A stretch of DNA of 64,000 bases, from NCBI GenBank assembly GCA_016218715.1, contig JACRDG010000068.1, positions 1-64,000 of the forward strand. The letters run 5' to 3'. Source of the stretch: Desulfomonile tiedjei. GTDB taxonomy: Bacteria; Desulfobacterota; Desulfomonilia; Desulfomonilales; Desulfomonilaceae. The notes below the pieces were generated by a model. That model saw only the letters and a list, made by a program, of their open reading frames with translations, was not told the origin of the DNA and made no database searches. This document shows positions 30,209 to 62,939 of the stretch, one piece after another; position 1 is the stretch's first letter; each line of letters begins with the position of its first letter. Both the position numbers and the translations under genes were made by a program.

Positions 30209-30898
30209 TCAACCTCCTGTGGTGATGATACGTACGAGCTTGCGCAACTCCCCCAAATCCTCGTCGGATATCCTGGTAATGGCAAACCCGGTCAAGGAGG
30301 TCCCTTCGTCCGGATCGGTGAAACACCACCTGCAGTAGCCCTCGAACTCAAAAGCCGCGAACTGGCCGAACTCGTCCGCGAGGATGACGAGGGTTTTCGC
30401 GTCTCCAACGTTCGCTTCGAGCCCCGCGATGCTGACCCCCTCTTCGGAGATGTCTCGTACCGTGCCCTGGACCTCGGGCCGCGCTGCGTCGTACACAGGG
30501 ATCTCGAGATCGACCTCGTGTCTCACGAACTCAGAAGTCGTAATAAAATCGGCAGGTTCTTCAATGATCGTCTCGGGATCATCGTCAACGGACCTGCTCC
30601 CTCGCGCTTCGAGGAGCTTCTTACCTACCCGTTTAAGCATCTCCGCGGACAAGTCGTACTTCTTCATGAGTTCCGACCGACTCATTCCCCCCCGGATGTC
30701 GGCCAGGACATTTACAATGTTGAGCCTGCGAAGGACCGTATCGACTTTGTGCCCGAAAAGTCCCGCCTCGATCAGCTTCTCGTAGAGGCTCTTCACACCC
30801 TTGGCCGACAGGTTGTATTTCTTCTGAATGGCGGTTTCGTCCATGCCCGATCGAATGTCCTGCAGGATTTCCTTTTGAGATATCTTTACTACAGCCAT
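30209..30898 (-). CDS. Two-module helical N-terminus plus PilZ domain protein
   Basis: 229 residues. Two copies of a 37-residue helical module (about 10-46 and 62-100) share the pattern ILxDIRSGM....L.KKY.LS....L..KL. Each looks like a helix-turn-helix-sized unit. From about 124 comes a PilZ-type domain with DISEEG (the D/NxSxxG motif) and a weak RxxxR region (VRHEVDLEIP). PilZ domains bind cyclic di-GMP, so this may be a nucleotide-responsive regulator (inference). The start at 30898 sits close behind GGGGAGGG; an upstream in-frame ATG at 30931 exists. Paralogues are at 31249-31770 and 62232-62939. Confidence 0.75.
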   Translation of the reverse strand: MAVVKISQKEILQDIRSGMDETAIQKKYNLSAKGVKSLYEKLIEAGLFGHKVDTVLRRLNIVNVLADIRGGMSRSELMKKYDLSAEMLKRVGKKLLEARGSRSVDDDPETIIEEPADFITTSEFVRHEVDLEIPVYDAARPEVQGTVRDISEEGVSIAGLEANVGDAKTLVILADEFGQFAAFEFEGYCRWCFTDPDEGTSLTGFAITRISDEDLGELRKLVRIITTGG

Positions 30899-31248
30899 AG
30901 CCCTCCCCGGAGCGGTGAATTGGGGCGCCATTGTATGCGATTGCCCTGCCGGATGGAATAGAAAAAAACAGTGCGCCGAGTAGGCGCGGTCAAGGACTTG
31001 ACCGAGCTGCCCTCAATAATGGCGGCCCATAGGCGGTCCTCTTACCGGTGCCGTGTTGCGCCATCTTTCAGTCGGCTGCACGTTAGTCATTGACGGACGG
31101 GGTATGGTGAAGTACGGTGGGAGAGGATTGCGAGGCACCCGGCAACGAGAACCTGATAGGGTAGAGGGACCGCATACACGGCAGAGGAAGGGTACCCGGC
31201 CAATAAGGCTTCATCCTGCGTGATCCGTGCTTCAGGACAAGGGGGGCC
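30899..31248. other. Divergent promoter region between two PilZ-module genes
   Basis: This 350-bp gap separates two divergently transcribed paralogues. I see no coding frame, hairpin or clear promoter pair in it. The shared gap could allow joint control of both genes. Confidence 0.5.
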
Positions 31249-31770
31249 ATGAAAAATACAAGAAAAATCAATGGAAAAGAGTTTGTCGGCGACCTTCGGG
31301 CAGGTTTCTCTCCCCACGAGTTGATGGAGAAGTACGAATTGTCCGGAGATGACCTGCGGAAAATCCTCAGGATGGTCCTCGATGCCTCTGCCATGAAGAA
31401 GACGGAGATCGAATCCCTGCCGAGCCTGTACGAGGGAACCAACGGACAAGCAGGTATCCGGCGATTTCAGCGCAAGCGGCTCGACTACACGATGTACGTT
31501 TACGACAGCGTCGATCAGCTCGACGGCGGCGAGGTGATGGATGTCTCCGAACAAGGGATGCAAATCAAGGGCCTGCGCATAGCAAAAGGGGAAGAGCGCA
31601 CGTTCATTGCCCGTTCCAAGGCCCGCTCTCAGCACCGGCCTTTTGTGTTCGAGGCGATATGCTGTTGGGTGGAGAAACCGGACGGCGATCCGAAGAACTG
31701 GCTCGCGGGACTGAAGATCACCCGCATCTCCCACCTGGACGCCAAAGAACTCGGAGAACGGCTGCTCTAA
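31249..31770 (+). CDS. One-module helical N-terminus plus PilZ domain protein
   Basis: 173 residues with GGGGGG just upstream of the ATG. It has a single helical module (about 4-42: VGDLRAGFSPHELMEKYELS, then a KIL helix) related to the two-module proteins in this window. A PilZ-type domain follows from about 62, with a basic RFQRKR near its start and DVSEQG as the D/NxSxxG motif. It is divergent from the paralogue at 30209-30898. Probably a cyclic di-GMP-responsive or similarly regulated protein; no diguanylate cyclase is in the window. Function inferred from the domain only. Confidence 0.75.
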   Translation: MKNTRKINGKEFVGDLRAGFSPHELMEKYELSGDDLRKILRMVLDASAMKKTEIESLPSLYEGTNGQAGIRRFQRKRLDYTMYVYDSVDQLDGGEVMDVSEQGMQIKGLRIAKGEERTFIARSKARSQHRPFVFEAICCWVEKPDGDPKNWLAGLKITRISHLDAKELGERLL

Positions 31771-62217: not shown

Positions 62218-62236
62218 ACAGCAAATCGGTATCAGG
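62208..62236 (+). repeat. Dispersed AATCGGTATCA repeat, copy 3
   Basis: ACTTCTTGGACAGCAAATCGG then TATCAG continues from the right arm of the hairpin. The AATCGGTATCA core equals the other two copies. The stop codon of the PilZ-module gene (62232-62234 on the minus strand) is formed by the last bases of the repeat. Confidence 0.65.
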
Positions 62237-62939
62237 TGCCGAACGAAGTCAATTTGATGAGCTTGCGGAGTTCTTCCCGTGCGGTGTCGGATAGTGCGAG
62301 GATCTTGAATCCCGCGAGCACGACCTGTTCAGGCCCTTCTCGCCGACTCCACCGGCACTCGGCTTCCACGTCGAAAGGAGCCACGACGCCGAAGGCATCG
62401 CCGAGGATCACCAGCGTCTTGATCTGCTCGGTCTCCACCTCGAGCCCTTCCACCCCCACCCCTTTTTCGGAAAGGTCTCGCAGCCTGCCCTGGATTTGGG
62501 GGTTCTCGGACAGATAGACGGGTATCTCGAAATCGAGAGAATAGCGCTGCAATTCGCGGACGAAGTGAGAGACCGCGGTTTCATACTGGATCCCAACTTC
62601 TCCGAAAAGGGTGTCGCGGTCAATGGCCTTGAGGTCGAGGAGCTTCTTGAACAGGACCTGCAATGCGTGCCGGGAGATCCGGTATTTCTCCATCAGCTCG
62701 ATATCACTCATGCTCGCCGAGATGTCCTTGACGATCTCCCGAATCCGGATACGCTGCCTCGGCGGTCGGAACCCGTCCCGAGCCGACGGAGTGTGCAATA
62801 GACCCAGGTCATCCAACTCGCGGCGAAGATTCTCAAGCCCCTGGGGAGTGAGTCGATACTTCTCCATGAGCTCTCGATCGCTCATGCCGGATCGGATGTC
62901 CGTAATGGCTTCTTTCGCCTTTATCTCTCGCTCGGTCAT
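62232..62939 (-). CDS. Two-module helical N-terminus plus PilZ domain protein
   Basis: 235 residues from ATG 62939 (CGGAG upstream; longer in-frame starts exist up to 63101). Two helical modules (about 8-47 and 66-105) share DIRSGMSDRELMEKYRLT and DISASMSDIELMEKYRIS. The PilZ-type domain from about 125 shows RELQR (RxxxR) and DLSEKG (D/NxSxxG), the two cyclic di-GMP-binding signatures, more intact than in the paralogues at 30209-30898 and 31249-31770. Its stop lies in a dispersed repeat. Function inferred from the domain. Confidence 0.78.
   Translation of the reverse strand: MTEREIKAKEAITDIRSGMSDRELMEKYRLTPQGLENLRRELDDLGLLHTPSARDGFRPPRQRIRIREIVKDISASMSDIELMEKYRISRHALQVLFKKLLDLKAIDRDTLFGEVGIQYETAVSHFVRELQRYSLDFEIPVYLSENPQIQGRLRDLSEKGVGVEGLEVETEQIKTLVILGDAFGVVAPFDVEAECRWSRREGPEQVVLAGFKILALSDTAREELRKLIKLTSFGT

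Follow-up and report, generated by a model that had tools for sequence, protein, structure and literature searches.

Genes and Domains at the Locus

A stretch of 64,000 nucleotides from Desulfomonile tiedjei (the window) contained three open reading frames that join a small helical module to a PilZ domain, at 30209–30898 (−), 31249–31770 (+), and 62232–62939 (−). The initial annotation had described them as carrying one or two modules each and a C-terminal PilZ-like domain, with two of the genes as divergent neighbors, and this description was confirmed. A profile search located two modules in the 30209 protein, one in the 31249 protein, and two in the 62232 protein. Pfam PilZ (PF07238) scored 29.3, 24.3, and 29.5 bits in the three proteins, respectively, above the gathering score of 22.5. 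The 30209 and 31249 genes were divergent, with a gap of 350 bp. The features of the locus are listed below; helices are those of AlphaFold2 (AF2) models.

30209..30898, − strand: protein 1, 229 aa, two predicted HTH modules and PilZ (ORF with ATG at 30898, Pfam PilZ, AF2 model)
30749..30886, − strand: protein 1, predicted HTH module 1; profile E 1.8e-18; helices 8–16, 21–28, 32–44 (AF2)
30605..30730, − strand: protein 1, predicted HTH module 2; profile E 1.5e-11; helices 61–69, 74–80, 85–98 (AF2)
30233..30532, − strand: protein 1, PilZ (PF07238, alignment); Ser instead of the first Arg of RxxxR; Z 13.5 against c-di-GMP-bound PP4397
30899..31248, no strand: intergenic region of the divergent genes 30209/31249; inverted repeat GGTCAAG-GA-CTTGACC at about 30988–31003
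31249..31770, + strand: protein 2, 173 aa, one predicted HTH module and PilZ (ORF, Pfam PilZ)
31261..31419, + strand: protein 2, predicted HTH module; profile E 1.6e-17
31456..31764, + strand: protein 2, PilZ (PF07238, alignment); RRFQR motif intact
62232..62939, − strand: protein 3, 235 aa, two predicted HTH modules and PilZ (ORF, Pfam PilZ)
62787..62930, − strand: protein 3, predicted HTH module 1; profile E 1.9e-20; helices 8–16, 21–28, 32–44 (AF2, tandem)
62604..62753, − strand: protein 3, predicted HTH module 2; profile E 4.7e-18; helices 66–74, 79–86, 90–102 (AF2, tandem)
62256..62555, − strand: protein 3, PilZ (PF07238, alignment); RELQR motif intact

The repetition of the module was not due to chance: the window modules were matched at E 1e-11 to 1e-20 in the whole-genome search, with a profile built partly from these same modules. 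The closest orthologue of the 30209 protein was found in the relative genome G003, with 66% identity. Conservation of the 30209/31249 pairing was rejected, as no 31249-like ORF adjoined the orthologue at the locus retrieved from G003. The palindrome GGTCAAG-GA-CTTGACC was not seen upstream of this orthologue and was absent upstream of the other module genes. No GGDEF or two-component gene was identified beside the three genes of the window. Elsewhere, a divergent module-PilZ pair was kept between this genome and G005 (L029:3082–4692 and L078:353–2055), as reciprocal best hits with 39% and 45% identity.

Length and Fold of the Module

The module was longer than the 37 residues first assigned to it. 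It comprises a three-helix core of ~38 residues and, after it, a conserved 'aGxIxxxELxxR' tail, which together span about 53 residues. The AF2 model of the 62232 tandem contained two three-helix units and a low-confidence linker (mean pLDDT 82.7, pTM 0.44). In the model of the 30209 protein, two such units preceded a barrel of six strands and a C-terminal helix. The pLDDT of the modules was mostly >90. In these predicted structures, each module is an independent three-helix HTH, separate from the PilZ barrel, in line with the HTH-type unit initially suggested. The proposed check by structure prediction of the tandem modules thus placed them outside the PilZ fold. A module forming part of that fold was ruled out by the 30209 model, which separates both.

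The structural neighbors of the tandem were mostly HTH domains of regulators (AsnC/Lrp, ArsR, MarR, LuxR), with Z of 5–6. Such values are middling for small helical domains and fall within common helical arrangements; they support the fold, not a function. The winged HTH domains of AsnC/Lrp, ArsR, and MarR share the three-helix geometry over ~50 residues, whereas the modules have no wing strands in the AF2 models, carry Met at HTH position 5, and are joined to unrelated partners. Position 5 is small in classical HTH motifs; it was Met in 73 of 101 modules. The modules were mildly basic, with a mean charge of +1. No significant match to the module was found among solved structures by sequence search of the PDB.

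The more frequent subthreshold Pfam matches of the modules were mostly HTH families. DUF433 (COG2442, PF04255), which includes VapB10, was the most frequent, with a weak match over the HTH core in 27/60 modules; the methyltransferase-type dimerization families PF08100 and PF21212 were also among the weak matches. Membership in DUF433 was rejected, however, since the best module in the whole-genome search reached 20.0 bits and the gathering cut-off is 23.6 bits. The window proteins scored 12–22 bits, also below the cut-off. Searched as whole proteins, several further members had lower E-values against DUF433 (best 8.5e-8, a comparison by E-values only). In the PF04255 genome search, a genuine DUF433 gene, located on contig C114, scored 87.8 bits.

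Size and Distribution of the Module Family

The initial count of three proteins was a large underestimate. The profile search gave 104 module matches at E ≤ 0.01 in the genome (5.55 Mb, 124 contigs). The matched places yielded at least 68 proteins, which together carried 101 modules (E < 1e-4), a set that leaves out a few further weak places. One module was present in 41 of these proteins and two in 24; three, four, and five modules occurred in one protein each. The first module lay ≤8 residues from a Met in 54/68 proteins. An ORF of 596 aa, in which five modules stand in tandem and membrane segments are predicted, lay ~14 kb beyond the window (L019:3206–4993; contig C21 about 77.7–79.5 kb).

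Nine relatives within the Desulfomonilaceae had 1–69 module matches each in the profile search, and one genus of the family had zero. In the class sample, no genome of the sister family had the module. Strong copies occurred in only three of 395 genomes of the phylum, all of them Desulfomonilaceae. When 84,980 species were scanned with a strict pattern, which may miss distant members, every relative detected lay on a contig titled Desulfomonilaceae or Desulfomonile. Two weak matches outside the Desulfomonilaceae (E 1e-5) were rejected as members; one was like an Rrf2-type regulator, and the other had no recognizable resemblance. By these sequence searches, the module appears to be essentially confined to the Desulfomonilaceae. 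No model for the module was found in Pfam or NCBIfam, and a literature search found nothing on its motif, nor on Desulfomonile together with PilZ. The folds are already known; the databases and literature searched yielded nothing on the module family, its scale, or the joining of HTH and PilZ.

Partner Domains

The partner domain was PilZ in 25/68 module proteins. The other Pfam partners were ankyrin repeats (6), PQQ propellers (2), and pentapeptide repeats, Yip1, and HD_5 (one each). CxxC zinc ribbons were present in 21/68 proteins and predicted membrane segments in 14/68, according to simple pattern counts. One protein had the order module-PilZ-PAS-kinase-receiver, and another module-receiver-PAS-HD. 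Since PilZ was one partner among many, the family cannot be described essentially as one of PilZ effectors. The module was present on most Pfam-detectable PilZ proteins of the genome; the module-free genus had one PilZ match in each of two genomes.

Six small, module-only proteins (L011, L016, L024, L026, L027, and L045) had a second conserved segment after the module, resembling 'lsxTxxQxxxAFxExxxAxxELD'. Two of them, L016 and L026, adjoined GGDEF genes. In three genomes (L013:3534–6068, L119/L117, and L063/L064), a gene encoding module-zinc ribbon-PQQ preceded one encoding module-zinc ribbon-membrane, apparently as conserved neighbors.

PilZ Domain and Related PilZ Proteins

The PilZ barrel of the 30209 protein (AF2 residues 121–229) resembled PP4397 with c-di-GMP (Z 13.5), MotI (13.4), and MrkH (13.2). 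The PilZ profile was matched at E ≤ 0.01 by 31/38 relatives. In the alignment, the first Arg of RxxxR was present in 38/43 relatives and the second in 41/43; the Gly of [D/N]x[S/T]xxG was retained in 41/43. Both Arg residues were present in the 31249 and 62232 proteins. In the 30209 protein, the first Arg was replaced by Ser, and its c-di-GMP binding is therefore uncertain. Judged from these motifs, the module-linked PilZ domain likely binds c-di-GMP. With the module outside the PilZ fold and RxxxR kept, neither of the two contrary results open to computation was obtained.

Known PilZ proteins (PF07238: YcgR, MotI/DgrA, PP4397, and Alg44) share the barrel of six strands, the C-terminal helix, and both motifs, RxxxR and [D/N]x[S/T]xxG, with the proteins described here. 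The PilZ subfamily of the module proteins differs in a 'CxW' strand with near-invariant C and W (Cys 42/42, Trp 41/42; alignment columns 81 and 83). Compared with YcgR, the N-terminal partner is one or two predicted HTH modules, not a YcgR-type domain. MrkH, a PilZ c-di-GMP-dependent transcription activator, likewise combines PilZ with a putative DNA-binding part, but the proteins described here carry HTH modules and no MrkH-like N-terminal DNA-binding domain. A 2025 review of c-di-GMP effectors names MrkH as the PilZ-based transcription regulator and describes its DNA-binding domain as novel, in place of a canonical HTH; it also points to PilZ proteins whose partner domains are undefined as a research direction (PMC12564702).

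Genome Neighborhood

Four of the 10 GGDEF genes found in the genome were immediate neighbors of module genes. The probability of this adjacency by chance was about 5e-5 (2.5e-5 to 8e-5 for an assumed 4500–5500 genes; 0.002 by a cruder length-based estimate). In L022, a receiver-GGDEF gene lay directly upstream of a module-PilZ gene on the same strand, and in G003 a GGDEF match adjoined a module-PilZ gene. Among 106 neighbors of module genes, receiver domains were counted 10 times and kinase ATPase domains 7 times, as counts without a background rate. Genome context links the module family to c-di-GMP.

Target of the Module

The explanation preferred here, tentatively and at slightly under even odds, is an N-terminal HTH recruitment module common to paralogous signaling proteins of a c-di-GMP/two-component network, with one shared target. 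In these Desulfomonilaceae paralogues, the module would stay constant while the domain behind it was swapped (PilZ, ankyrin, zinc ribbon, membrane segment, kinase/receiver, or HD-GYP-like HD). Local GGDEF enzymes would make c-di-GMP, and PilZ would bind it through RxxxR and [D/N]xSxxG. Bound PilZ would alter the position or availability of one or two tethered HTH modules. The module would recruit all partner domains to a protein hub or the nucleoid, not to separate operators, because the same module stands ahead of many unrelated domains. No hub protein for recruitment was identified.

A somewhat less probable explanation is that the proteins are one-component transcription factors. Each HTH or tandem would bind its own operator, a C-terminal PilZ or other domain would act as sensor, and c-di-GMP would switch DNA binding. 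The nearest structures are DNA-binding regulators with the HTH fold, the tandem modules in 24/68 proteins could stand in for a dimer, the mild basicity suits DNA, and divergent pairs such as 30209/31249 fit autoregulation. VapB10, a protein of the nearest Pfam family, DUF433, is a sequence-specific DNA binder that binds its own promoter (PMC3834315), which also favors this explanation. Against it, a comparison of 57 module genes with 153 controls revealed no motif enriched upstream, in a test that could detect only a site common to module genes. The dyad search gave no enrichment beyond the control split, with the top dyads at chance level after 174,000 tests. The candidate common operator CATTGCCG/ATTGCCGA occurred in 7/57 against 1/153, but one intergenic site was counted twice, and the candidate was rejected.

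The predicted contact residues also lacked preferential conservation. In 55 orthologous module pairs, identity was 37% at five predicted recognition-helix positions and 47% at the remaining positions presumed to be exposed, where position classes were assigned by pattern, not coordinates, and the orthologues compared are distant. The corresponding values in paralogues were 15% and 29%. In favor of a shared target, the charged residues D11, K24, and R53 were kept across paralogues (70–75% pairwise) whatever the partner domain, although they may only hold the fold together. The frequent Met at HTH position 5 and the multi-span membrane, ankyrin, pentapeptide, and PQQ proteins among the partners likewise speak against one-component transcription factors. 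It is improbable that the module is only a dimerization domain or structural cap, spread by gene duplication and with no dedicated external target. Three-helix HTH-like units are able to act as dimerization domains, and PF08100 and PF21212 were among the weak matches, but the unrelated partner classes and the clustering with signaling genes exceed the needs of a cap.

The null dyad result and the contact residues, set against the DNA binding of VapB10, give recruitment to a shared target only a modest lead over DNA binding specific to each gene. The new class of c-di-GMP-controlled effectors suggested in the initial annotation was therefore partly upheld. The separate predicted HTH, the retained PilZ motif, and the c-di-GMP context agree with it, whereas the minority share of PilZ among the partners and two computations that did not favor DNA binding do not.

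A broader possibility, rather unlikely as judged at present, is family-wide addressing, in which one HTH-derived module would direct c-di-GMP receptors, kinases, and membrane and ankyrin proteins to a single target, as a scaffold private to the Desulfomonilaceae. With as many as ~100 module copies in a genome, 68 mostly uncharacterized proteins could be grouped and tested together in the Desulfomonilaceae, the bacterial family of Desulfomonile.
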